From assembly GCA_020723325.1 (NCBI GenBank), contig DYJD01000029.1, forward strand, positions 1-64,000: DNA of 64,000 bases. Reading direction: 5' to 3'. The translations under genes and the position numbers were made by a program. Source of the stretch: Desulfosudis oleivorans (GTDB lineage: Bacteria; Desulfobacterota; Desulfobacteria; Desulfobacterales; SURF-7). Below, piece after piece: positions 2,513-51,564 of the stretch. The notes under the pieces are model-generated. The model worked only from the letters and a program-made list of their open reading frames with translations. It was not told the DNA's origin and did not search any database. Each line of letters opens with the position of its first letter. Position 1 is the stretch's first letter.

Positions 2513-2666
2513 GCCGTTGGATTATGCTACAATTCAAATTTTGATAAAGGTGATGTTTTTCTTCGTCCTTCAACTTGTTAATATGAAAACATTTTAAAGT
2601 AAAATAGTTTCACTGCATCCCGCATCCTGTTTCCCGAGCCTTTTTGCACAAATTGCATAATTTTTC

Positions 2667-2694
2667 TTGACAGACCGCATTGACTTGGCATAAA
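2667..2694 (+). promoter_or_regulatory. Possible promoter of the hydrogenase-Hdr operon
   Basis: TTGACA at 2667-2672 and CATAAA at 2689-2694 (16-nt spacer) sit immediately before the maturation-protease ATG at 2704. A start about 7 nt downstream would make the first mRNA nearly leaderless, which agrees with the lack of a Shine-Dalgarno sequence before that ATG. Confidence 0.35.
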
Positions 2695-2703
2695 TGGCAC
2701 AAT

Positions 2704-3189
2704 ATGCTGAAGCCGATATTTGACTATGACTGTCTGGTTTTGGGTTGCGGCAATCCCCTCATCGGGGATGACGGCTTTGGACCGGCAGTGATCCAGCATC
2801 TGGAAAGCAATTATAAAATACCGGAATCCGTGGCCGCCATTGACTGCGGAACCTCCATCCGGGACCTCCTCTTCGACGTATTACTGTCCCCCCGCAAGCC
2901 CAACAAAATGATCATCGTCGACGCCGCCAGCACTCCAGGATACGGTGCCGGTGAGATCCGGGAAATCGACATTGACGAGATCCAGCCGGAAAAAATCAGC
3001 GACTTCTCTTTGCACCAGTTTCCCACCACCAACATGCTCAAGGAATTGAAAGAGGAAAGCCCCATGGCGGTAAAGGTATTCGTGGTCCAAGTCTCCACCC
3101 TGCCCGATGAGGTCACGGTGGGACTTTCAGAGCCGGTTCAAGCGGCTGTACCGCGCATGTGCGCGCGGATCATGGCGGAGATCGGCTGA
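2704..3189 (+). CDS. Hydrogenase maturation protease (HyaD/HycI family)
   Basis: A 161-residue endopeptidase that clips the C-terminal tail of a NiFe-hydrogenase large subunit after nickel insertion. Family features seen: N-terminal LVLGCGNPLIGDDGFG with the nickel-binding acidic residue in GDDG, the second acidic site in VDAASTPG, and a His in FSLHQFPTTNM. Length fits the family (about 150-170). An ATG eight codons further upstream (2680) is possible, but homologous proteins begin close to the LVLG strand. It is the first gene of the operon; its expected substrate is the large subunit at 10666, whose last 28 residues follow the CATH cleavage point. No ribosome site is clear, so translation may be leaderless. 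Confidence 0.88.
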   Translation: MLKPIFDYDCLVLGCGNPLIGDDGFGPAVIQHLESNYKIPESVAAIDCGTSIRDLLFDVLLSPRKPNKMIIVDAASTPGYGAGEIREIDIDEIQPEKISDFSLHQFPTTNMLKELKEESPMAVKVFVVQVSTLPDEVTVGLSEPVQAAVPRMCARIMAEIG

Positions 3190-3213
3190 ACACCCAACCA
3201 GACGGAGGTTTGC

Positions 3214-6200
3214 ATGCAGGTGGCAATCCGTGTCGGTCGACTGGCCCAGAAGCTGGGGGTGCATCGCAATACCATCACCAACTGGATCAATTCCGGCAAA
3301 CTCCAGGCCACGGCCACGGTCGGCAAGAAATACCTCATCGACAAAAACCTGTTCCTGATTTTCTGCCGGGAACACGGCATTTCCGAAAATATTCTCCAGG
3401 AGCTGATCGAGATCGGACCGGCTTCTCCCACGGGTGATGACGCCATCACCCCAACCTTTCATCCCAAGCCCAAAGAGGTGCCTATGTCAGCAAAGCCCAT
3501 TGGATCGGTATTGGTGGTGGGTGGCGGCATCGCCGGCATGCAGGCGACGCTGGACCTGGCCAACTCCGGCTATTATGTTCACCTGGTGGAAAAAACCGCC
3601 GGGATCGGCGGAGCCATGGCCCAGCTTGACAAAACCTTCCCCACCAACGACTGCGCCATGTGAATCATCTCGCCCAAACTGGTCGAGGTCGGCCGGCATT
3701 TGAACGTCAATCTCCTGACCTTATCGGAAGTCGTGGATGTTTCCGGCGAAATCGGAAACTTCTCGGTCAAGGTCAAACAACATCCCCGTTACATCGACAT
3801 GGAAAAATGCATCGCCTGCGGCTTGTGCGCCCAGAAATGCCCCCGCAAGGTGGATGACGAATTCAACCTGGGCTTGAACCAGCGCACCTCGGCCTATATC
3901 AAATACGGCCAGGCCGTGCCCCTTAAATACGCCATTGACGGCGAGACCTGCATCTATCTCACCCGGGGCAAGTGCAAGGCCTGTGAGAAATTCTGCCCCA
4001 CCTCGGCCATCAATTTCGAGGACCAGGAGCAAATCATCGACCTGCAGGTGGGCGCCGTGATCCTTTCCCCTGGTTTCAAGCCCTTTGACCCTTCCGGTTT
4101 CGACTTCTACGGCTACCGCAAGATACCGGACGTGGTCACCAGCCTGGAATACGAGCGCCTGCTATCCTCCAGTGGGCCGTGCATGGGGCATCTGGTGCGG
4201 CCCTCGGATCATAAGGAGCCCCGTAGCATCGCCTGGATCCAATGCGTGGGCTCGCGCAGCACCAACCGCTGCGAAAACGGCTACTGTTCCAGCGTGTGCT
4301 GCATGTACGCCATCAAGGAAGCCCTGGTCACCGCCGAACACACATCCGGGGATGGAGTCCGACAAACCATCTTCTACATGGACATCCGCAGCCACGGCAA
4401 GGACTTTGACCGGTTTTACGAGGATGCCAAAGCCAAGGGCGTGCGTTTCATCAAGGCCCGGCCCCACACCATCGAGGCCGGCAAGGACAATTGCGGCGTC
4501 ACCATGCGCTATGCCTGCGAAGACGGAAAGATCATGATCGAGAACTTCGACCTGGCCGTGCTCTCCATCGGCCTTGAACCCACAGCGGACGGGAAGCGCC
4601 TTTCGGATCTTTTCCAACTGAACCTCAACCAGTACCGCTTTGCCAAGACCTCGGACTTCTCCCCGGCCTGCACCAACCGGCCGGGGATCTATGTGGCCGG
4701 TGCCTTTCAGACCCCCAAGGCAATTCCCCGGGCCGTGACCGAGGCCTCCAGCGCGGCCCAGGAAGCAGCCACGGCCCTGATTCACGCCCGCGGCGACCTG
4801 ACCAGAAGCAAGACCTATCCGGCCGAACGCGGCATCGAGGGCCAGGAGGTGCGCGTCGGCGTGTTCGTCTGTTCTTGCGGCATCAACATCGCCGGCATCA
4901 TCAACGTGGACGAGGTGGCCCGCTATGCCCGCACCCTGCCCCATGTGGCCCTGGTGGAGAACAACCTCTTCAGTTGCTCGGCCGACACCCAGGAAATGAT
5001 GGCCAAAAAAATCATGGAACATTCCCTGAACCGCATCGTCATCGCCGCTTGCACCCCGCGCACCCACGAAACCCTGTTCCAGGAAACCCTCCAGGAGACC
5101 GGCCTCAACCCCTATCTGGTGGAAATGGCCAACATCCGCAACCAGAACGCCTGGGTGCACCAGCGCGAACCGGAAATGGCCACCCGCAAGGCCAAGGACC
5201 AGGTGCGCATGGCCGTGGCCAAGGCGGCCCTGAGCGTGCCCATTGAAAGAACCAAGGTCAGCGTGGTCCCCAAAGCCCTGGTCATCGGCGGCGGTGTGGC
5301 CGGCATGCAGGCGGCCCTGAGCCTGGCAGACCAGAATTTTCAGACGGTGCTGCTGGAAAAATCCGATCAACTGGGCGGCAATGCCTGGAAAGTGAACACC
5401 ACGGACCAGGGCGAATATATCCGGCCCTTCCTGGAAAAACTCATCGGACGGGTGGAGTCCCATCCGGCCATCGAGGTGCTGAAAAACGCTCGCCTGACAA
5501 GCGCCAAGGGCTCGGTGGGCAGTTTCACCAGTGAAATTCAGGTGAACGGCGCTTCCCGGGACTTGACCTATGGCGTGGCCGTGCTGGCTGTGGGCGGCCG
5601 GGAAACCACGCCCGCGGAATATCTGTACGGTGAGGACCCCCGGGTGGTCACCCATCTGGAGCTGGACGCCCTGATGCGGGATGATTCCGCCGGGCTGAAA
5701 AAAGCCAAAACCACGGTATTCATCCAGTGTGTCGGCTCCCGGGATGAACGCCGGCCCTATTGCAGCCGCATCTGCTGCACCCATTCCGTCAAGGCCGCCA
5801 TCCATCTCAAGGACCTCAACCCGCAGATGAATGTCTACGTTCTCTACCGCGACATCCGCACCTACGGCGAACGCGAGGACCTGTACCGGAAGGCCCGGGA
5901 CCTGGGAGTGATCTTCATCCACTATACCCCTGAACAAAAACCCCTGGTGGGCCGGGAAGGCGCGGACCTTACCGTGGAAGTCTTCGATCCCATCCTGCGC
6001 CTGCCGGTGAGCATCACCACCGACCGGCTGGTGCTGGCCGCCGCCATGGAGGCCAATGATTCAAAGGATCTGGTGGAGCTGTACAAGTGCGCGGCCAACG
6101 CCGACGGCTTTCTCAACGAGGCCCATCCCAAGCTGCGGCCGGTGGACATGGCCGTGGACGGCCTGTTTGTGGCCGGACTGTGCAATTACCCCAAACCCCT

Positions 6201-6537
6201 CAACGAGACCATTGCCCAGGCCAAGGCTGCCGCGGCCCGGGCCGCGGTGATTCTGTCCCAGACGGAAATGACCCTGGACGCCATCAAGTCCTTTGTCACG
6301 GACAAATGCGACGGCTGCGCTTTGTGCCTGGATGTCTGCCCCTATCGGGCTTTGACCCTCACGGATTACCAGGCCGGGGACGGCCGCACCCATCTCCGCA
6401 TGGCCAGCGACAAGGCCCTGTGCAAAGGCTGCGGCCTGTGCTCGGCCACCTGCCCCAAGGGCGGGGTTTACGTGCACGGCTTCACCATGGACCAATTGCG
6501 GGCCCAGGTTATCGCGGCTTTGGAGGATGTTGCTTGA
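3214..6537 (+). CDS. hdrA: HdrA-type flavoprotein, selenoprotein, with N-terminal HTH
   Basis: A 1107-codon frame with one in-frame TGA (3661-3663), read as selenocysteine. Residues 1-60 are a helix-turn-helix of the excisionase/MerR type ([20 protein letters not shown]). From Met-91 (ATG 3484, with its own AGAGG ribosome site) the protein is HdrA: FAD motif [11 protein letters not shown], then NDCAM[12 protein letters not shown] where other HdrAs have Cys, then a ferredoxin insert ([21 protein letters not shown]). A second HdrA copy follows: CSCGINIAG, a second FAD motif [18 protein letters not shown] and a C-terminal 2x[4Fe-4S] domain ([24 protein letters not shown]). HdrA carries the FAD that performs electron bifurcation in Hdr complexes. 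Both 3214 (GGAGG site) and 3484 are credible starts, so the HTH may be a true fusion or a separately made product. Confidence 0.9.
3661..3690 (+). promoter_or_regulatory. UGA Sec codon and candidate SECIS hairpin in hdrA
   Basis: TGA (3661-3663) in frame with hdrA on both sides. Five nt downstream CTCG (3669-3672) pairs with CGAG (3684-3687), and inside it CCA (3674-3676) pairs with TGG (3680-3682). Bacterial selenocysteine insertion needs such a coding-region hairpin just 3' of UGA. The stem is short, so this is the weakest of the four. Confidence 0.6.
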
Positions 6538-6570
6538 TGCATCCTCAACCGCCCAACACAAGTCGTTCCC

Positions 6571-6716
6571 TCGGGGTCGGGGTCGCTATCGGTATCGGGG
6601 TCGAAAAAGCCTTACCGATGGCCGGGAATTCTTATGTCTTGATCGAACTACTATCAGGTACAAAGAAAACCAATCGGTCCCGATTGCGATTGCGACCCCG
6701 ATACCGACCCCGACGC
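6571..6716. repeat. Hexamer-arm repeat element, copy A (inside operon)
   Basis: The left arm (6571-6603) is built of GGGGTC/GGTATC/GCTATC hexamers and the right arm (6674-6716) of the complementary GACCCC/GATACC units, so the whole can fold into a long hairpin around a 70-bp centre. It fills the 248-bp gap between hdrA and mvhD. The same element type recurs at 15.1, 30.4, 37.3, 41.0 and 51.3 kb. Confidence 0.8.
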
Positions 6717-6785
6717 CGAGTTTAACCGGCAGGTCGAAGACAGGACAAGGGCAACCATAACGAGTATCTCAATAAGGAGTAGGCC

Positions 6786-7244
6786 ATGACAGAAAAATTC
6801 GAACCGGTCATCCTGGGTTTTCTCTGCAACTGGTGCGCCTATGCCGGCGGGGACCTGGCCGGTGTCGGGCGCTTGCAGTACCCGCCCAACATGCGCGCCG
6901 TGCGGGTGATGTGCTCCGGCATGGTCCACCCGGATATCATCCTGACCGCCTTCAACCACGGGGCGGATGGGGTCATCTTGATGGGCTGACATCTCGGGGA
7001 ATGCCATTACCTGGAAGGTAATCTCAAAGCCGTCAACCGCAGTGAAGCCGCCAAAATGGTCCTGGAACTCCAGGGCATCCACCCGGAACGTTTTACCGTG
7101 GAATGGGTTTCCTCCGCCGAGGCCCCCCGCTTTGCCGAGGTGGTGACCCGTTTCACGGAAAAGATCCGCAGTCTTGGGCCCGGCCCCAAGCAACGCCTTA
7201 AATCCGCCGCGCCGGAAGCGCGCGCCCAAGCCCAAGGGAGGTGA
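6786..7244 (+). CDS. mvhD: MvhD/VhuD-type hydrogenase-Hdr linker, selenoprotein
   Basis: A 152-residue iron-sulfur protein that in methanogens passes electrons from the NiFe hydrogenase to HdrA through a [2Fe-2S] cluster. Seen: FLCNWCAYAGGDLAG near the start, VMCSGMV in the middle, then GVILMG-Sec-HLGECHYLEGN, where the usual sequence is GCHxGxCHY. The TGA at 6987-6989 is codon 68; the same frame runs on for 84 more codons of matching family sequence to a normal TGA. Cluster ligation by these positions is known for the family; use of Sec here is inferred from frame, position and hairpin. ATG 6786 has an AAGGAG site. The next gene starts 6 nt after the stop. Confidence 0.93.
6987..7024 (+). 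promoter_or_regulatory. UGA Sec codon and SECIS-like hairpin in mvhD
   Basis: TGA at 6987-6989 is followed 16 nt later by ATTACC (7006-7011), loop TGGAA, GGTAAT (7017-7022): a perfect 6-bp stem with a G-containing pentaloop at the distance expected for a bacterial SECIS element. Confidence 0.8.
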
Positions 7245-7250
7245 GCCGCC

Positions 7251-8549
7251 ATGACCACCCAGCCTGTTAAGATCGGAAAAGAGAGCAAAAGCATTTTCAA
7301 GGACAAGGTCATGCAGTTGCTGCCCGACGGCGGCAATCTCAATGCCTGCCTGACCTGCGGGGCATGCGCCTCGGGCTGCCCGGCCACCGGCCTGGCGGAC
7401 ATGGACCCCAGGAGGTTCCTGCGCATGGCCGTCATGGGCCTGGATGAGCAGATCCTGAAAAGCGAATGGGTTTGGAACTGCACCCTATGCTGGCGCTGCA
7501 TCTATGTCTGCCCCATGAAAATCGACATCCCCCAGCTCGTATACCATGCCCGCAAGAGCTGGCCCCGGGAAGCCCGCCCCAAGGGCATCCGCTCCTCCTG
7601 CGACATGGCCCTCACCAGCGAGAGCTGCAGCGCCATGGGCGCCAAGGAGGAGGATTTCCGAATGGTGGTGGAGGATGTGCTGGAAGAAGTCCGGGCCAAT
7701 CAACCCGGCTGGGAAAACCTGACGGCGCCCATCAACAAGGCCGGGGCCGAATTCTTCCTGAACCAGAACTCCCGGGAGCCGGTCACCGAGCCGGACGAAA
7801 TGGTGCCCCTGTGGAAGATTATGAGTTTTGTGGGCGCGGACTGGACTTATTCCACCAAGGGCTGGGCCGCCGAAAACTACTGCATGTTCATGGCCGACGA
7901 TGAAAACTGGGAGCGCATCGTGCGCATCAAGGCCAAAGCCGTGGACGACCTGGGATGCAAGTACTGGGTCAACACCGAGTGAGGGCATGAACTTTTTGCA
8001 GTCCGGGTCGGACTGAAAAAATTCAACATCCCCCACAAATTCGAGATCACCACCATCGTGCAACTTTACGCCCAATGGATCCGTGAGGGCAGGCTCAGGT
8101 TCAATTCCGACTGGAACCGGGACCTGAAGGTCAAGTTCACGGCCCAGGATCCCTGCAACCAAGTGCGCAAAACCTACGGCGATGCCTATGCCGAAGACCT
8201 GCGCTTTGTCATCAAGAAAGCAGTGGGCGAGGAGAACTTCGTGGACATGACCCCCAACCGCTCCAATAACTACTGTTGCGGCGGGGGCGGCGGCGCCCTG
8301 CAAGGCGGCTATCCCGAGGCCCGCCGCAGTTTCGGCAAGATCAAATTCGACCAGATCGCGGCCACCGGCGCGGCTTACTGTGTGGCCCCCTGCCACAACT
8401 GCCATTCCCAGATCCATGATCTGAACGAACACTTTAACGGCGACTACCACACGGTCCACTTGTGGACCATCATCTGTCTGGCCATGGGGGTCCTGGGCGA
8501 AAACGAGCGGGCCTATCTCGGCCCGGAGCTCATGCAGGTGGGCCTGTGA
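7251..8549 (+). CDS. HdrD/DsrK-like Fe-S protein with CCG domain, selenoprotein
   Basis: A 432-residue protein with TGA as codon 244 (7980-7982). Residues 30-100 form an HdrC-like 2x[4Fe-4S] domain (CLTCGACASGCP and CTLCWRCIYVCP). The C-terminal half has one CCG domain: E-Sec-GHE (usual ECGH), DPCNQVRK, NYCCGGGGG and PCHNC, i.e. the C-x39-CC...CxxC pattern that holds the unusual [4Fe-4S] cluster in HdrB, HdrD, DsrK and GlpC. Classical HdrB/HdrD have two CCG domains; only one is clear here, as in DsrK/HmcF. In Hdr complexes this subunit is the site of disulfide or thiol chemistry, so the Sec may be catalytic or a cluster ligand (inference). Substrate unknown. It is 6 nt after mvhD. Confidence 0.9.
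7980..8020 (+). promoter_or_regulatory. UGA Sec codon and SECIS-like hairpin in CCG gene
   Basis: TGA at 7980-7982 is followed by CAGTCC (7999-8004), loop GGGTC, GGACTG (8010-8015). The stem is lengthened by a T5 run pairing with A5 across one unpaired G. It is the strongest hairpin of the four and starts about 10-16 nt after the UGA. Confidence 0.82.
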
Positions 8550-8586
8550 ACATCCATCAAGCGGACATAACCGGAAAGGAGCGGGT

Positions 8587-9705
8587 ATGAAAACCTTCTT
8601 CGACCTGATTCAGGAAGTACAAAAACCGGGCCTGTGCCACCGCTGCGGCGGCTGCGTCACATTCTGCAGCGCCGTGAACTACGGCGCCCTTGATCTGGAC
8701 AAGGACGGCAAGCCTCTTTACAGCGAGATCGAGAAATGCGTGGAATGCGGCCTGTGCCATGCCATCTGCCCGGAAGTGGACGAGCTGGAAGCTGAAACCA
8801 AGGAACGCTGCGGCTGGACCGCGCCCATGGGCCGCATCATCGAAACCACTGTGGCCAGCTCCACCGACGCGGCCGTACGCAAGAATGCCACCGACGGCGG
8901 CGTGGTCACCGGCCTGCTTCTGCATCTCCTGGAACGCGGCCGCATCGACGGCGCCATCGTCACCAAACAAACCGGTCCCTTTCAGCGTCGGCCCTATTTG
9001 GCCACCTCCACTGAGGAGATCAAAGAGGCCGCCGGATTCTTCTTCGACACCTCCCATGGCATGAAGAATTTCAGCGATCAGTACATGACCTTTTCCACCA
9101 TTGAGGGATTTGATCCGGTCATGAAAAAAGGCCTGAAGCGTGTGGCCCTGGTGGGTACCCCCTGCCAGATCAAATCCGTGCGCCGCATGCAGACCTTGGG
9201 CCTGATTCCTTCGGAAAGCATCAAATTCTGCCTGGGCCTGTTCTGCTCCGGGAATTTCCTGTTCGGGGAGGTGGAGCGCCGCGCCCTGGCCGAATCCGGC
9301 GGCTTCGACTGGAAGGATGTCCGCAAAATAAACATCAAGGAGGACTTGAAGGTCCATCTCAAGAACGGCGAGGCCAAACACATTTCCATGGAACAATTGC
9401 TCAGTATCCGGCGTTTCGCCTGCAGCTTTTGCCAGGACTACTCCTCGGAATTCGCCGACATTTCCTTTGGCGGCCTAGGGGCCGAGGAAGGCTGGACCAC
9501 GGTCATCACCCGTTCGACCCAGGGCCGGGCCGCCTTTGCCGATGCCAAGGGCGCCGGCGCCCTGGAGGAGTTCAGCGTCAAGGACAATCCCGGCTTCGCC
9601 ACCCAGGCCCTGGCCCTGGTGCGTACCCTGTCGGCCCGGAAAAGACGCAGCGCCCAGCAAAACAGGCGGAATTTGGGGAAAAAAGGAGTAAAAATAAAAA
9701 GCTGA
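8587..9705 (+). CDS. FrhB-like flavin/Fe-S oxidoreductase
   Basis: A 372-residue protein of the coenzyme F420 hydrogenase/dehydrogenase beta-subunit family, which binds FAD and moves electrons between clusters and a soluble carrier. Seen: N-terminal 2x[4Fe-4S] set (CHRCGGCVTFC, CVECGLCHAICP), the family core TDGGVVTGLLLHLL, VGTPCQIKSVRRM, GLFCSGNF, and RRFACSFCQDYSSEFADIS near residue 278. The lysine-rich tail (KKGVKIKS) is unusual. An AAGGAGCGGGT site precedes ATG 8587. In this operon it would give the Hdr-hydrogenase complex a second electron exit; whether the partner is F420, NAD(P) or ferredoxin cannot be told. Known relatives accompany Hdr genes in sulfate reducers. Confidence 0.87.
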   Translation: MKTFFDLIQEVQKPGLCHRCGGCVTFCSAVNYGALDLDKDGKPLYSEIEKCVECGLCHAICPEVDELEAETKERCGWTAPMGRIIETTVASSTDAAVRKNATDGGVVTGLLLHLLERGRIDGAIVTKQTGPFQRRPYLATSTEEIKEAAGFFFDTSHGMKNFSDQYMTFSTIEGFDPVMKKGLKRVALVGTPCQIKSVRRMQTLGLIPSESIKFCLGLFCSGNFLFGEVERRALAESGGFDWKDVRKINIKEDLKVHLKNGEAKHISMEQLLSIRRFACSFCQDYSSEFADISFGGLGAEEGWTTVITRSTQGRAAFADAKGAGALEEFSVKDNPGFATQALALVRTLSARKRRSAQQNRRNLGKKGVKIKS

Positions 9706-9722
9706 TTAAGGAGGAACCGATC

Positions 9723-10664
9723 ATGGGTGTCCGAGTTGCAAGTGAATGGTTGAATTCATGCTCCGGATGTGAAATTTCCATCATCGACATGGGCGAGCGT
9801 CTGCTCGACATTCTGGCGGTGGCGGACATTGTGCACCTCCCGGCCTTGGTGGACAGCAAATATTACGGCCAGCGCGGGGATCAGAAGCATCTGTCCCTGC
9901 CCGAAGCGGATGTGGGCATCATCAGCGGCGGCATCCGCAACGAGGAACACCTGGAGGTGGCCCTGGAAATGCGCAAAAAATGCAATCTCATTATCGCCCT
10001 GGGGACCTGCGCCACCCACGGCGGCATCCCCTCCCTGGCCAACACGTACACAGTGGATGAAATCAAGGAACGCGCCTATTCCACCGAAACCACCGACCGG
10101 CCGGATGCCTACCCGTCCGAGGGTCTGCCCGCGCTTCTGGATGCCTGCTATGCCCTGGATGAAAAAATCAAGGTGGACATCCAGTTACCGGGCTGTCCGC
10201 CCCATCCGGATATTATCTTTTCGGCCCTGGTGGCCCTGGTGCAAGGCAAGCCCCTTTCCGTGCCGGACAAGAGCGTGTGCGACACCTGCCCCACCGTACG
10301 CAAAGGCAAGGGCGAGCTGAAAAAAGTGCGGCGCTTCCTCACGGCGCCGGAATACGGGGCCCCGGGCGAACCCCTGGACAAGATGCGCTGTTTGCTGGAA
10401 CAGGGGTTCCTGTGCATGGGCCCGGTCACCCGCGCCGGTTGCGGCGGCGACGGCATTACACCGCGCTGTGTTTCAGCCCGGGTGCCCTGCCGCGGCTGCT
10501 CCGGCCCGGTACGCCATGACGGCAACCAACTGCTGGATATGCTCAATGCCCTGGCCTCCAACGGCATTGACCTGAAATCCATCCCCAACCGGCCCCTGCT
10601 GCTGCGGTTTTCAGGGGCCCACGCCTTGCTCAAACCGGTATTCCAGGAAAGGAGATCGAGTTGA
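9723..10664 (+). CDS. [NiFe]-hydrogenase small subunit (MvhG/FrhG type)
   Basis: A 313-residue electron-transfer subunit of group 3 cytoplasmic hydrogenases. It lacks the Tat signal of periplasmic enzymes. Proximal-cluster ligands are seen in SCSGCEIS (residues 12-19), GTCATHGG and LPGCPPHPD; further cysteines CDTCP, FLCMGP, AGCGG and VPCRGCSGP supply the other clusters. The reading frame extends open upstream, but the start is ATG 9723, preceded by TAAGGAGGAACC. It follows frhB by 17 nt and meets the large-subunit gene with a 1-nt gap. It hands electrons from the Ni site to the MvhD-like protein in known Mvh complexes. Confidence 0.93.
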   Translation: MGVRVASEWLNSCSGCEISIIDMGERLLDILAVADIVHLPALVDSKYYGQRGDQKHLSLPEADVGIISGGIRNEEHLEVALEMRKKCNLIIALGTCATHGGIPSLANTYTVDEIKERAYSTETTDRPDAYPSEGLPALLDACYALDEKIKVDIQLPGCPPHPDIIFSALVALVQGKPLSVPDKSVCDTCPTVRKGKGELKKVRRFLTAPEYGAPGEPLDKMRCLLEQGFLCMGPVTRAGCGGDGITPRCVSARVPCRGCSGPVRHDGNQLLDMLNALASNGIDLKSIPNRPLLLRFSGAHALLKPVFQERRSS

Positions 10665-10665
10665 T

Positions 10666-12120
10666 ATGACCCAAACCATCACCATTCAACCGATTACCCG
10701 CATCGAGGGCCACGCCGCCATCAACATCTGGCTGGACGATGCGGGCAATTATAAGGATGCCCGCGTGAACTACATGTCCCTGCGGGGATTCGAGAAATTC
10801 GTGGAAGGCAAACCGGCCGAGGAACTCCCGGACATTGTCTGCCGGATCTGCGGCATCTGCCCCTGGATGCACCACTTGGCCTCCAACAAGGCCGTGGACC
10901 GCTGCTTCGGCGTCACCCCGCCCCCGGCCGGCCATAAGCTGCGGGAGCTGATGCAGACCATTGCCCATGCCGAAGACAAACTGCTGAACTTCTACTTCCT
11001 GGCGGCGCCGGATTTCGTCATCGGACCCGATGCCGATTATTCCGTGCGCAATGTGGTGGGCATTGCCAAGGCCAATCCGGAACTGGCCCAGCAGGTGATC
11101 AAGACCCGTTACATGGTCAAGATGATTCTGGACAAGTTCTCCCGCAAGACCATTCACCCCGTGGCCGGCGTGCCCGGCGGCTTTTCCAAACCCATGCTGG
11201 AGGAGGAGCGCCGCGAGATCCTGGAAAAAATGAAACAGGTATTGGACTTCTCCCAGTTCACCCTGGACTTTGCCAAAAAGAACGTGTTCCCCAAATACAT
11301 GGACGCCATCAAGACCCTGGGGGTCATCACCACCGGGTTCATCGGCACCGTGGATGAAAAGGGCGGCCATAACCTTTACGACGGCAAAATCCGCCTGATG
11401 AAAGCCGACGGCAGTTATACGGACTTCGATGCCCAGGATTACGCGGACTATCTGGGCGAGCAGGTAGTACCCTATTCCTACGGCAAGTTCCCTTACGCCC
11501 GTTGCTGGAATGAAGGCTTTGACCTGGATGTGGACCATCCCAAGGGCATTTACCGGGCCAACACCCTGGCGCGCATCAACGTGGCCGACCATATGGCCAC
11601 CCCCAAGGCCCAGGCCGAGCTGGAGGAATTCCGCTCCCTATTCGGCCGGCCGGCCCAGGCCACCCTGCTCTACCACTATGCCCGGCTCATCGAAGGGGTT
11701 TACGCCGGCGAACGCGCCATCGAGATCCTGAGTGATCCAACCATCACCGATCCTGATGTGCGCGCACCCTTTGAACCCCAGGCCGGCCGGGGCGTGGGCT
11801 GCGTGGAAGCCCCACGGGGAACCCTGATCCACGACTATTCCACGGACCAGAACGGCCTGATCACCAGGGCCAATCTCATTGTGGGGACCACCCACAATCT
11901 CGGGCCCATGAACCTGAGCGTCAAACAGGCGGCCCGGGCCTTGATCCAAAACGGCAATGTAACCGAAGGCATCCTCAACCGGATTGAAATGGCGGTGCGC
12001 GCCTACGACCCCTGAATCAGTTGCGCCACCCATCGCCTGGACGGCGATCACATTGTGACCATCAAAATCATGGACGCCCAAAATCGGGTAATCAAGGATT
12101 GGCCTGAGCGGAAAATGTAA
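10666..12120 (+). CDS. [NiFeSe]-hydrogenase large subunit, selenoprotein
   Basis: A 484-residue catalytic subunit of a group 3 (Mvh/Vhu-like) hydrogenase. N-terminal Ni-Fe ligands are in RICGICPWMHH (CxxCxxxH). The C-terminal motif reads AYDP-Sec-ISCATH: TGA at 12013-12015 (codon 450) stands where the first Cys of DPCxxC bridges or binds Ni, and the frame continues for 34 codons to TAA. Ending at the TGA would remove the second Cys and the protease site, leaving a dead enzyme. By family knowledge a specific protease cuts after CATH, removing 28 residues; a fitting protease starts this operon. Sec at this place defines [NiFeSe] enzymes and is also found in VhuU of Methanococcus. Such enzymes are often more oxygen tolerant and faster in H2 production. 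Confidence 0.95.
12013..12050 (+). promoter_or_regulatory. UGA Sec codon and SECIS-like hairpin in large subunit
   Basis: TGA at 12013-12015; 16 nt later ATCGCC (12032-12037), loop TGGAC, GGCGAT (12043-12048). Stem length, pentaloop with a G pair and distance match the mvhD hairpin almost exactly. Confidence 0.82.
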
Positions 12121-12131
12121 GGAGGATAATC

Positions 12132-13268
12132 ATGAGCGCAACCACTCCCGTTGTATACTTGGCTTCCCCTGTGTTTCGGGAGATCGCTGACAATCCCAAG
12201 GTCTCCGTGAAATACAAATTCATGATTAATAAAGTCTGGAGCAATCTCAACACCGCGGCCGAAGTCATTGTGGCGGAAAGCCGCTTTCCCAGCACGGAAG
12301 AAATCGTCCAGACCGTGACGGAAAAGGAGGTCGATTTCATCGGCTGCCACCTGGGCCACCGCATCACCGAGGAGATCGTTTCCATTCAAAGTGTCAAGGC
12401 CGTCAGCACCAGCAATGTGGGTTGGAACCATATCCATCTTCACCCGGCCATAGTCGTCACCAACACCCCCGGCGTCCTGGCCGGCACCATTGCCGACTAT
12501 ACCGTGTCCCTGATCCTGGCCAACCTGCGCAATATCGTGGGGCTCAGCAACTATTTGTGGAACGGCAAATGGACTCCGGCTGATAAATGGGACCTGGACC
12601 GCCACATCGGTAAAAACACCGAGAACCTTACCTACGGCATTCTCGGCCTGGGTCAAATCGGCCGGGAAGTGGTCCAGCGGGTGGCGCCCTGGGGTATCCA
12701 CATCGCCTACCACGATATTTTCCAGAGCATGGAAATGGAAGAGCGCTTTCCGAACCTGACTTATTACGAGGACGTGGAACAGCTTTTCAAGACCGCCGAC
12801 ATCATCTCCATCCACATTCCGCTGGATGAAAGCACCCAGCACTTTGTGGGTGAACATCTTCTGCAACTCATGCGTCCCCATGCTCTTCTAGTCAACACGG
12901 CCCGGGGCGGGGTCATCGATACCGCGGCCCTGATTCGCCTTCTGAAAAACAAGGACATCGCCATCCACCTGGCTCTGGATGTTTACGAGGACGAACCCCT
13001 GCCGGCCGAGACCCTGGACGAGTTCCGCGAGATCACTGCGGAAAGACCGGATCTGCGCTTCATCTTCACCCCCCACAGCGCGACCGCCGATGCCGACACC
13101 CGGGCGCGCATGTCCGCCACCATGCTGGCCAACCTGAATTCCCTGGCGCGCTCCACCACGGCCCGGGACATCAAGGAACTGAACGTGGTCCCACCCATGG
13201 CCTTTTTGAAAAAAGAGCCGCGCATGATCGAGGACTTCCGCATTTTCAGGTGGTGGCAGGGGAAATGA
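12132..13268 (+). CDS. D-isomer-specific 2-hydroxyacid dehydrogenase
   Basis: A 378-residue NAD-dependent oxidoreductase of the family that includes D-3-phosphoglycerate, glycerate and NAD-formate dehydrogenases. Seen: NAD motif GILGLGQIGREV (about residues 173-184), the acidic residue closing the following strand (HDIF), VNTARGGVID with the catalytic Arg, ALDVYEDEP with the Glu, and TPHSA with the catalytic His. Its N-terminal part (GCHLGHRITEEIV, SVKAVSTSNVGWNHI) is typical. ATG has a TAAGGAGGATAATC site 11 nt after the hydrogenase stop, so it shares the transcript. Substrate unknown; a link between H2-derived electrons and reduction of a 2-oxoacid is only a guess. Confidence 0.88.
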   Translation: MSATTPVVYLASPVFREIADNPKVSVKYKFMINKVWSNLNTAAEVIVAESRFPSTEEIVQTVTEKEVDFIGCHLGHRITEEIVSIQSVKAVSTSNVGWNHIHLHPAIVVTNTPGVLAGTIADYTVSLILANLRNIVGLSNYLWNGKWTPADKWDLDRHIGKNTENLTYGILGLGQIGREVVQRVAPWGIHIAYHDIFQSMEMEERFPNLTYYEDVEQLFKTADIISIHIPLDESTQHFVGEHLLQLMRPHALLVNTARGGVIDTAALIRLLKNKDIAIHLALDVYEDEPLPAETLDEFREITAERPDLRFIFTPHSATADADTRARMSATMLANLNSLARSTTARDIKELNVVPPMAFLKKEPRMIEDFRIFRWWQGK

Positions 13269-13567
13269 GATCGGGATATGCGTTACGGGTTGCGGACTGT
13301 GAGATACGGGAGGGCCTTGATCATCGTTTCGGCCGTATCGCGGCTGGAAGCCGCTCCCACCGAGCAGCGACGTCCGAAATGATGTTCATGACCTATTGAG
13401 AGAGTAAGCCTTAATAGCCTCGTAAGAAATCCCAACCGCTGTCACTCCCGCGCAGGCGGGAGTCCAGAGCTACTCGAAAAAACCGGATTATTGCCTGCGC
13501 GGGAATGACGGGAAAAGGTGTTTTTGCGACTTTTTACGAATGCATCAAGCCTTTTGGAAGTTCAGGC
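13269..13567. repeat. Intergenic gap with two REP-like repeats
   Basis: Two repeat units and no gene. The first (about 13311-13360) is the 50-bp unit centred on GCGGCTGGAAGCCGC, also found near 15150, 45790 and 51470. The second (13441-13511) is an inverted pair: GTCACTCCCGCGCAGGCGGG on the left and CCTGCGCGGGAATGACGG on the right, related to the copy at 25275-25346. The left part could act as a transcription end for the hydrogenase operon, but it has no T-run. Confidence 0.75.
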
Positions 13568-14773: not shown

Positions 14774-15280
14774 TTTTGGCTTCCTCTGTAGTGTAGGCAA
14801 ATAGACTGAAGGCTGAAACTTTTTGGGTCTAGATCAGGCCATATCCGACGGTTGCGCTCTTCATCGGTCGCTTCTTTTTGTGATCCGTTGAAGTAGATCG
14901 GAATGGTCTTTAATATACTAGGCCGTTAATTCGAATGCAAGCCCAGATCCTGGCAGGGGAATCCCATGCAAACTTGGCGCGGAACGTGCGGCCATTAATT
15001 ACCAATATTTCATTTAGCGAAAACTATTGCCCACAGAAACAAAGCGATTCGTGAATGCTTGGGTTTTGTCTCTGCCATCCATCTTCTCGGGGTCGGGGTC
15101 GGGGTCGGTATCGGTATCGGTATCGAGTTTTTTCATCTGTATGCATTATCGCGGCTGGAAGCCGCTCCCACGATGGAGGATGACCGCAACGATGATCAAG
15201 GCAAAAAAAATTCAATTCGATACCGATCCCGATACCGACCCCGACCCCGAAAAAAACCATGTGCGATTACCCTGGATATT
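14774..15280. repeat. Gap with hexamer-arm repeat element, copy B
   Basis: No gene is seen. 14774-15080 is featureless. The left arm of the repeat (15087-15125, GGGGTC/GGTATC units) and right arm (15218-15250) enclose a 50-bp REP-like unit (TCGCGGCTGGAAGCCGC at 15149-15168). Reading frames through the arms give VGVGIGIG-type peptides, which are artefacts of the repeat. Confidence 0.8.
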
Positions 15281-30357: not shown

Positions 30358-30514
30358 CGATACCGATCCCGATACCGATACCGATTCCGACCCCGAGAGG
30401 TTGGATGATTGAGGAGAACTATAATAATCCCAACTCGCTGGTTCTTACGGTTAATGGTATCAAGACGATTGCCGTCCATGATCGGGGTCGGGGTCGCTAT
30501 CGGGATCGGGGTCG
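30358..30514. repeat. Hexamer-arm repeat element, copy C
   Basis: Left arm 30358-30397 (GATACC/GATCCC/GACCCC units), right arm 30481-30514 (GGGGTC/GCTATC/GGGATC). The centre begins GAGAGGTTGGATGATTG and includes ACTCGCTGGTTCTTACGG, clearly related to the centre of copy F at 51.3 kb. It fills the gap between the permease and the SDR gene. Confidence 0.85.
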
Positions 30515-30545
30515 AAAACAAAATAATGAGAGATAATGAGAGATA

Positions 30546-37154: not shown

Positions 37155-37390
37155 GCTGAAGGCCGAGCAGTTACAATTGATTTATATCCTCATCCCCTAT
37201 AGCCTCAGGGGAATCGCATATAGTTTTTTCGGTATCGGTATCGGTATCGAATCTTTTTTTATCATACCCTGAGCCCGATTCAACAATTTGCATTCTGGAA
37301 ATCGTGTTTTACATCTCGACCCCGATACCGATAGCGACCCCGACCCCGATCATATGTCACTTCTTTAAATGTGATTGCCCTGCCTATAGC
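37155..37390. repeat. Gap with hexamer-arm repeat element, copy D
   Basis: No gene. Left arm 37229-37249 (three GGTATC units), right arm 37317-37350 (GACCCCGATACC-type units). The element sits between two convergent genes. Confidence 0.8.
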
Positions 37391-40969: not shown

Positions 40970-41060
40970 CAGAATTAGGAATTACGAATTAGGAATTGTG
41001 GTATTCTATCTTTTTCTATTTTCGGACTCCGATCCCGATAGCGATCCCGACCCCGACTAT
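40970..41060. repeat. Repeat block with 40-bp unit and hexamer half element, copy E
   Basis: The 428-bp gap 40870-41297 has no gene. At 40970-41010 is an AT-rich unit made of TTAGGAATTACGAATTAGG and TGGTATTCTATC, present in inverted orientation at 51524-51564. At 41029-41058 are hexamer units (GATCCCGATAGCGATCCCG), followed by a centre (GACCGTCTTGATTATATGA) like that of copy C in reverse; the second arm is missing. Confidence 0.75.
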
Positions 41061-51282: not shown

Positions 51283-51564
51283 GATACCGATTCTGATCCC
51301 GAGAGGTTGGATGATTGCGGAGAAGTATAGCAGCCACGACTCGCTGGTTTTTTAAAGGCTATGAAACCAGGCTGATCATGTCCACTATCGGGGTCGGGGT
51401 CGCTATCGGTATCGGGGTCGTCGGAAAAGCAAAATACGGGCCTTGATCATTGCTTCGGCCCTATCGCGGCTGGAAGCCGCTCCCACAAAGACCTGGGAGA
51501 AACACTATATGAAAATAATAATTGATAGAATACCACAATTCCTAATTCGTAATTCCTAATTCAT
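51283..51564. repeat. Composite repeat block, copy F
   Basis: The gap 51220-51771 has no gene. It holds: hexamer-arm element F (left arm 51283-51303, right arm 51387-51420, centre GAGAGGTTGGATGATTG as in copy C); the 50-bp REP-like unit (51438-51486, GGGCCTTGATCATTGCTTCG then GCGGCTGGAAGCCGC); and an AT-rich 40-bp unit (51524-51564) that is the inverse of 40970-41010. Three families therefore sit side by side. Confidence 0.85.

Follow-up and report, generated by a model that had tools for sequence, protein, structure and literature searches.

We analysed the first 64,000 nucleotides of contig DYJD01000029.1 of Desulfosudis oleivorans (C12:1-64000; this whole stretch is called the window), which belongs to a genome of 7.2 Mb in 113 contigs that is 99.5% complete, and we focused on one operon with the order HycI-HdrA-MvhD-CCG-FrhB-Small-Large. 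Four of its products, HdrA, MvhD, the CCG protein and the hydrogenase large subunit, very probably each contain selenocysteine (Sec), as judged from the sequence of their genes and of their relatives. The most probable product of the operon as a whole is a [NiFeSe] hydrogenase-Hdr complex that is cytoplasmic and belongs to the Vhu/Mvh-Hdr kind, with four Sec residues inserted by SelB and with modular electron exits. A preliminary description of this DNA had proposed a complex of four selenoproteins resembling archaeal enzymes; the four selenoproteins, the archaeal likeness and the broken gene calls all stood, the sel genes were present, and what did not stand was the idea that selenium is used at every transfer step.

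With the standard code, HdrA is split into 3214-3663 and 3700-6537, MvhD into 6786-6989 and 7056-7244, and the CCG gene into 7251-7982 and 8058-8549, while the large-subunit call ends too early (10666-12015), as expected from the preliminary description, whose coordinates were correct. Reading TGA as a residue gives proteins of 1107 (HdrA), 152 (MvhD), 432 (CCG) and 484 (large subunit) amino acids, with a single internal UGA in each. Wholesale reassignment of UGA was ruled out, because HdrA, MvhD and CCG all terminate in UGA.

Relatives were collected by scanning genome contigs with the large subunit, which gave 134 loci, and the best 80 of these 134 were kept for all locus counts. They are named mostly as Desulfobacterota and some just as "Deltaproteobacteria" or "Proteobacteria". 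The large subunit closest to that of the window (L022, 93% identical) is from a metagenome assembly labelled Desulfosudis oleivorans. Codons at the UGA columns were counted in plus-strand matches only. Results showed TGA in 59 loci at the HdrA column (TGC in 1, TGT in 1, 19 uncovered), in 65 at the MvhD column (TGC in 4, TGT in 2, 9 uncovered), in 45 at the CCG column (TGC in 4, ATC in 1, 30 uncovered) and in 80/80 at the large-subunit column. Relatives had been proposed as a check for unrelated codons at these positions, and every covered locus has either UGA or Cys but for one with Ile, in agreement with the claim that the UGAs stand at conserved cysteines. Among the nine complete loci with the gene order of the window, eight have UGA at all four columns and one (L048) in the large subunit only. 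The sole HdrA TGC (L044) lies in a match just 35% identical, which is probably another paralogue. Six loci (L047-L049, L052, L067 and L071) have Cys (or Ile) in at least one of MvhD, CCG and HdrA, and their large subunit still has UGA. In five of them (L047, L048, L049, L052 and L067) MvhD has Cys, as does CCG or HdrA where covered; three of these five are labelled Desulfobacula.

Solved structures gave a further view of the same columns. Chain A of 9sfi has X at the HdrA Sec column and chain K has X at MvhD columns 17 and 68; we take X to be Sec here and the organism to be a Methanococcus. The MvhD of the window has UGA at column 68 only, and an MvhD paralogue on another contig (L125:7314-7739, G000:C76, where G000 is this genome) has UGA at column 17 only (CxxU). 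The large-subunit UGA replaces the first Cys of the DPCxxC motif near the C-terminus, presumably a Ni ligand position, and this column is Cys in 9sw2_F. For the CCG protein, the column is Cys/Sec without exception in a 30-sequence alignment. The four genes contain 37 (HdrA), 4 (MvhD), 19 (CCG) and 7 (large subunit) ordinary Cys codons, and multiplication puts the probability of four random hits on Cys/Sec columns near 1e-6, a figure that disregards that UGA is one step from the Cys codons; the relatives are a better test. We also compared the window with four close loci (L022, L023, L024 and L029), and in each gene, both before and after the UGA, substitutions fell most often on third codon positions. 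Terminal stops of the relatives, located by walking on from the match ends, were TGA, TAA and TAG in 45, 17 and 7 loci for HdrA, 23, 33 and 15 for MvhD, 11, 21 and 18 for CCG, and 23, 35 and 22 for the large subunit.

The genes needed for Sec decoding, whose presence had been named as a check, are all in the genome. We found selA (605 bits), selD (368 bits, with one internal TGA), selC as the sole tRNA-Sec above the gathering score (51.9 bits vs 47), and SelB above the curated cut-off at two loci, one of which directly adjoins tRNA-Sec; the second SelB-family protein (G000:C92:43990-45882) is distant from selC. The predicted stem-loops were likewise there: each of the four UGAs is followed by a hairpin with its apical loop from +23, a stem of 6-7 bp and a G in the first two bases of the loop. 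Covariation was seen in two stems: among 78 distinct large-subunit sequences the pair +18:+32 changed on both sides 22 times, and among 43 distinct CCG sequences the pairs +20:+30 and +19:+31 did so 10 and 9 times. The six pairs of the MvhD stem are identical in 57 of 58 distinct sequences; the stems of MvhD and HdrA, near-invariant or one-sidedly variable, say little either way. In synonymous-codon shuffles, the mean folding z past the UGA was -2.15 for CCG (46 sites) and -1.92 for HdrA (60), and control stretches in the Sec genes ranged from -1.11 (just before the CCG UGA) to +0.22. Other internal UGAs in the HdrA and MvhD copies of this genome fit the +23 geometry in 5/8 cases. A stem of at least 6 pairs at +23 follows 5 of the 1154 plus-strand TGAs of the window, including all four Sec codons, and 3 of 1234 on the minus strand, counts that are descriptive because the geometry was first read off these hairpins. 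Three of the other TGAs with this hairpin (26853 on the plus strand, 46534 and 30828 on the minus strand) were rejected as candidates, having several in-frame stops in the preceding 50 codons; the fourth (5527, minus strand) sits opposite hdrA. Taken together, the decoding of the four UGAs as Sec is strongly supported by these sequence comparisons.

Table 1. Coordinates of the operon, its predicted Sec codons and hairpins, and flanking features in the window.
Feature	Position	Strand	Basis
Upstream 9-bp direct-repeat pair (unit WWWTKGCAY), candidate operator	2641..2658	+	
Promoter-like TTGACA-N16-CATAAA	2667..2694	+	read by eye
Second 9-bp direct-repeat pair, 1 mismatch, overlapping the -10 region, just before the hycI ATG	2683..2700	+	
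hycI-type hydrogenase maturation protease	2704..3189	+	PF01750, TIGR00072
hdrA with N-terminal helix-turn-helix, tandem/rearranged	3214..6537	+	Pfam, NCBIfam, alignment
BldC-like HTH_17 domain fused in frame to the HdrA N-terminus	3214..3417	+	PF12728
UGA, predicted Sec150 of HdrA (DCAMU)	3661..3663	+	X in 9sfi_A, same column
SECIS-like hairpin of hdrA, apical loop AGGT	3679..3696	+	folding geometry
Dispersed inverted-repeat element, TCGGGG/TCGGTA type, between hdrA and mvhD	6570..6720	.	
mvhD/vhuD (FlpD)	6786..7244	+	PF02662
UGA, predicted Sec68 of MvhD (GUHLGECHY)	6987..6989	+	X in 9sfi_K, same column
SECIS-like hairpin of mvhD, loop TGGAA	7006..7022	+	folding geometry
CCG protein: HdrC-like ferredoxin domain and HdrB/TmcB/HmcF/DsrK-like CCG domain	7251..8549	+	
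UGA, predicted Sec244 of CCG protein (EUGH)	7980..7982	+	codon column in relatives
SECIS-like hairpin of CCG gene	7999..8015	+	covariation
frhB-like flavin/Fe-S protein, no internal UGA	8587..9705	+	PF04422, PF04432
Hydrogenase small subunit, VhuG/MvhG-like, no internal UGA	9723..10664	+	NF045875 below cut-off
[NiFeSe] hydrogenase large subunit, VhuA- and VhuU-like parts in a single chain	10666..12120	+	
UGA, predicted Sec450 of large subunit (DPUxxC)	12013..12015	+	codon column in relatives
SECIS-like hairpin of large subunit gene, loop TGGAC	12032..12048	+	covariation
2-hydroxyacid dehydrogenase, downstream neighbour	12132..13268	+	
SECIS, selenocysteine insertion sequence.

Pfam and NCBIfam searches assigned the four Sec genes to HdrA, FlpD/MvhD, a ferredoxin-CCG protein and the nickel hydrogenase large subunit, and the frhB product to the FrhB/FpoF family. 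HdrA is made of a TrxR domain, the HdrA N-domain, a second TrxR domain and a C-terminal ferredoxin domain, its residues 97-523 matching the HdrA model from about position 140 and its residues 544-722 matching the archaeal N-terminal part. The large subunit matches NF041785 over residues 4-427 and NF041786 (VhuU) over 433-461, both under cut-off, and the latter match spans the UGA. This VhuU match over the C-terminal part, together with the coincidence of the HdrA and MvhD Sec columns with X in 9sfi, bears out the likeness to archaeal HdrA, VhuD and VhuU that had been claimed. The CCG gene encodes a single fused protein with HdrC-like ferredoxin sequence at the N-terminus and a model that has an HdrB-like fold and matches both HdrB and HdrC chains; the AlphaFold model (pLDDT 84) gave seven PDB matches at E<=0.001, namely mycobacterial EtfD, five HdrB-type chains and a LUTA-LUTB model, and the best NCBIfam profiles were TmcB, HmcF and DsrK, each under cut-off. 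Chains like HdrA, MvhD and the large subunit occur together in the solved entries 5odc and 9sfi (queries with these three subunits only).

We also looked at the gene order of the 80 loci. The commonest order was HycI-CCG-HdrA-MvhD-Small-Large (36/80), followed by HycI-HdrA-MvhD-FrhB-Small-Large (11/80, plus 2) and by the order of the window (9/80, plus 2 cut at the 5' end with hycI out of view); the remaining 20/80 were incomplete or odd. The operons are thus sorted into CCG-only, FrhB-only and CCG plus FrhB forms. Cultured relatives that carry such operons include Desulfatibacillum alkenivorans and, with the CCG-first form, Desulfopila aestuarii. The same genome has a second Sec operon (L123:4187-11246, G000:C105) with the order HdrA-MvhD-FrhB-small-large, in which the matched HdrA has no helix-turn-helix (HTH), no CCG precedes the hydrogenase and the large subunit is 75% identical to that of the window. 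It also has a Cys-only CCG-HdrA-MvhD set (L122:4426-9229, G000:C1 about 60425-65228) that adjoins selB and tRNA-Sec, without a hydrogenase, and whose CCG is 62% identical to the window CCG. The Sec set of the window is therefore one of several isoforms in this genome. Considering the gene-order variants and these two sets, CCG and FrhB look like alternative or additional electron ports, and the exits look modular.

The proposed mechanism is as follows. SelB would insert Sec at each UGA, directed by a SECIS hairpin of the bacterial type whose apical loop lies about 22 nt further on. Sec would serve the large subunit as a Ni ligand, this subunit would split or make H2, and electrons would pass from the small subunit to MvhD (Sec68) and on to HdrA (flavin; Sec150 in the first flavin domain). 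HdrA may bifurcate or confurcate, with a low-potential carrier on one side and, on the other, the HdrB/TmcB-like CCG protein (Sec244), which could act on a disulfide such as DsrC, and FrhB would be a further or alternative electron port. We infer the assembly into one complex, the bifurcation at HdrA and the electron path between H2, the large and small subunits, MvhD, HdrA and CCG. If so, the H2-to-Hdr electron path in these sulfate-reducer relatives would be built with selenium at four points, as seen across the 80 homologous loci. Selenium at every transfer step was an overstatement, as the small subunit and FrhB have no internal UGA and MvhD has one Sec vs two X in 9sfi_K.

Several observations weigh against Sec decoding of the four genes or against the complex proposed for them. 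The +23 geometry was chosen after inspecting these four hairpins, and 3/8 of the other internal UGAs in the HdrA and MvhD copies of the genome misfit it. For HdrA, a rival hairpin with the loop GGTCG at +28 outscores the +23 hairpin in 44/60 sequences; neither the HdrA nor the MvhD stem showed two-sided changes. The shuffle z was weak for MvhD (-1.06, 66 sites) and, in the large subunit, hardly different from zero (-0.36, 81), and among the four window sequences alone the test singles out CCG only. Cys homologues fold past the column as well (CCG, n=4, -1.94; HdrA, n=2, -1.98), although those of MvhD do not (n=6, +0.30); part of the folding signal may therefore be a coding constraint or a remnant. 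An Rfam search of 2600-13500 at E<=10 gave eight matches, all far under gathering scores, and no relevant RNA. The CCG of L071, outside the 30-sequence alignment, has Ile (ATC) at the Sec column in a match that is 32% identical and otherwise well aligned. Finally, the NCBIfam cut-offs for HdrA, VhuD, VhuG, VhuA, FrhB and TmcB were none of them reached (VhuA 451.8 of 800, VhuD 121.8 of 215, HdrA2 937.5 of 1100, VhuG 226.4 of 450), and functions are for this reason transferred from distant relatives. One alternative is that the UGAs are true stops, or artefacts of sequencing or decay, leaving split pseudogenes or truncated proteins. Standard calling of open reading frames does halt there and three of the four genes also terminate in UGA, but wherever loci cover these columns the UGA recurs (59/61, 65/71, 45/50 and 80/80), substitutions are protein-like on both sides and the sel machinery is present, so that this explanation is nearly refuted and we give it almost no credence.

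A more serious alternative accepts the four selenoproteins and denies the single bifurcating complex: CCG and FrhB would form a separate DsrC- or ferredoxin-linked branch, the operon being a co-regulated hydrogen-metabolism set. It would account for the absence of CCG from 11 (plus 2 cut) and of FrhB from 36 otherwise similar operons, for the Cys CCG-HdrA-MvhD set that stands beside selB-selC without a hydrogenase, and for CCG having its best matches, all under cut-off, among TmcB, HmcF and DsrK. The conserved synteny and the joint occurrence of three of the chain types in 5odc and 9sfi argue instead for one complex, and we regard a separate branch as rather unlikely. The matches of FrhB to the FrhB/FpoF family could further suggest that the complex depends on F420. 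However, a search of this genome, which is 99.5% complete, gave no CofD match at E<=0.001 (CofC/E/G/H were outside the search), and CofD was above cut-off in 0/17 related genomes with FrhB-type operons, six of which had weak partial matches far below. With CofD missing, the use by FrhB of F420 made by this cell is unlikely, and an F420-dependent complex is very improbable. One hydrogenase-Hdr complex with modular exits is the reading that we prefer.

The kind of operon has been known since 2006, when a glpC-hdrA-frhD-frhG-frhA operon was reported in Syntrophobacter fumaroxidans and Desulfotalea psychrophila by Zhang et al. (PMC1794560). As described in the accessible part of that paper, it has the same four selenoprotein families and a small subunit in one deltaproteobacterial operon, with hdrA doubled, and all five of its gene families are present in the window (GlpC being equated with the CCG family by name, not by alignment). 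Unlike the window, it has glpC first and no frhB; here CCG comes after MvhD, FrhB is added and HdrA carries an HTH, and the accessible text has 0 occurrences of FrhB or helix-turn-helix (PMC1794560). The window CCG is about 32-37% identical to the CCG of CCG-first operons. In Desulfobacterium autotrophicum HRM2, the Sec hydrogenase MvhA2DG is clustered with the Sec protein HdrA1, and the genome paper already proposed H2-driven bifurcation by MvhADG-HdrA; it resembles the window in placing a Sec hydrogenase beside a Sec HdrA and differs in naming HysAB genes, with FrhB occurring 0 times in the text as accessible (PMC2702500). The central claim of the preliminary description was therefore right and already known in kind, given the 2006 operon and the HRM2 proposal. 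Selenoproteins HdrA, VhuD and VhuU are described for Methanococcus/Methanocaldococcus in the available portion of another report (PMC2933860). Compared with the archaeal Vhu system, the window has the VhuA and VhuU parts in one chain, one Sec in MvhD vs two X, a fused CCG protein replacing separate HdrB and HdrC, and its hairpins within the reading frame. A 2026 review, in its accessible part, describes a four-selenoprotein-gene operon and calls the interactions of FrhA and FrhD with HdrA and GlpC unclear (PMC13188914); the modular swaps seen here make these interactions testable. Proteomics of S. fumaroxidans left Mvh1, Mvh2 and Frh undetected save one Frh subunit, according to the accessible part of the study; these may be of the present operon type (PMC8691401). 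Two features may be new relative to the published descriptions: a gene order that combines CCG and FrhB, and an HTH fusion accompanied by promoter repeats. Neither was found in the open-licence literature searched, most subscription papers being beyond reach, and the accessible parts of PMC5109826, PMC12054007 and PMC10553843 do not describe FrhB or an HTH fusion in these operons.

The HTH at the N-terminus of HdrA had escaped the preliminary description. Its model matches this genome once, in the HdrA of the window. Among the 80 loci, it was found on HdrA in 17, on CCG in 35 and alone in 2, and not found in 26, a number of which are incomplete; wherever hycI is in view, the HTH comes right after it, and the recognition helix GVHRNT(I/V)xNWI is near-invariant between HdrA and CCG fusions. 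In L027, stops separate the HTH from HdrA, which can therefore be two distinct proteins. The structure model (pLDDT 80) gave BldC-DNA complexes (6amk/6ama) as top Foldseek matches, but the E-values were weak (0.02-0.03) and no match reached E<=0.001. The BldC family is marked by a MerR-like winged HTH that lacks a dimerisation helix and by head-to-tail binding to 9-bp direct repeats. BldC itself is a free 68-residue regulator, and CATTTGCAC is among the 9-bp direct repeats to which it binds, as given in the accessible part of its report (PMC5859096). The candidate sites of the window are also 9-bp direct repeats; unlike BldC, the domain here forms part of an enzyme subunit. Other operon-bearing genomes, all picked for carrying the operon, had the HTH in 10/10 cases (11 copies), and in four of those ten the query operon has no HTH and the HTH is on a CCG gene elsewhere.

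Two 9-bp repeat pairs flank the TTGACA box upstream of hycI, the upstream one overlapping TTGCACAAATTGCATAA (2644-2660). TTGACA is present in 4/7 aligned upstream sequences (window, L022, L023 and L024); a promoter scan did not return TTGACA-N16-CATAAA and offers other candidates, one at 2680. The 17-mer TTGCAYAAWTTGCAYAA, allowing at most one mismatch, has a single match in the 7.2 Mb genome, at the hycI promoter. Across 31 genomes, the 17-mer pattern had 23 matches and the backward control 5; of the 23, 12 lie at operons of this kind, which come from 11 genomes. As the unit consensus came from the window, only relatives count in the repeat test: in 63 of them, a tandem match with at most 3 mismatches was found within 150 bp upstream of hycI in 38 and inside hycI in 0/63, with 18/39 in the mostly CCG-first group (weaker) and 20/24 in the others. 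The mean best mismatch was 3.1 in loci with (54) and without (10) the HTH alike, against 5.6 and 5.8 in shuffles. Two stricter versions were rejected. A fixed tie between operator and HTH in cis fails in L031, L034 and L039, which carry the repeats and no HTH in that operon, a copy being found elsewhere in these genomes, and an exact 17-mer operator in all loci fails as well, at most 2 mismatches within 400 bp upstream being reached in just 26/54 HTH and 4/10 non-HTH loci.

These results tentatively suggest that the complex autoregulates, the HTH on the subunit after hycI binding the WWWTKGCAY repeats that flank the promoter, as repressor or activator, although we would not yet bet on it. A redox- and selenium-dependent enzyme subunit would then double as regulator of its own operon, much as PutA does. 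In Desulfacinum and Desulfosoma, where one such operon has no HTH, the CCG-fused copy elsewhere could act in trans. The HTH precedes the Sec codon within one chain. If Sec decoding failed, the product would therefore be a truncated protein whose HTH is intact, a possible selenium sensor. If the autoregulation is true, such an enzyme-regulator may couple transcription directly to the redox state or to the supply of selenium. The repeat pattern was also seen upstream of a Tat-exported hydrogenase small subunit-like gene (L141) and of nuoA/nuoB-like genes (L145), both named by eye.

Some minor features complete the picture of the region. The start of hycI was placed at ATG 2704, and TTG at 2680 is also possible. 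The 2-hydroxyacid dehydrogenase is probably accessory to the operon; it was matched in just 3/80 loci, some contigs ending before that point. The hdrA-mvhD gap, which holds the TCGGGG/TCGGTA element in the window, measures about 30 nt in L022 and L023 and about 130 nt in L024. Hexamers of this element also occur at 15084-15253, 30358-30518, 37316-37349, 41029-41056 and 51388-51420, and at 6570-6720 and 15084-15253 they make up long inverted repeats.

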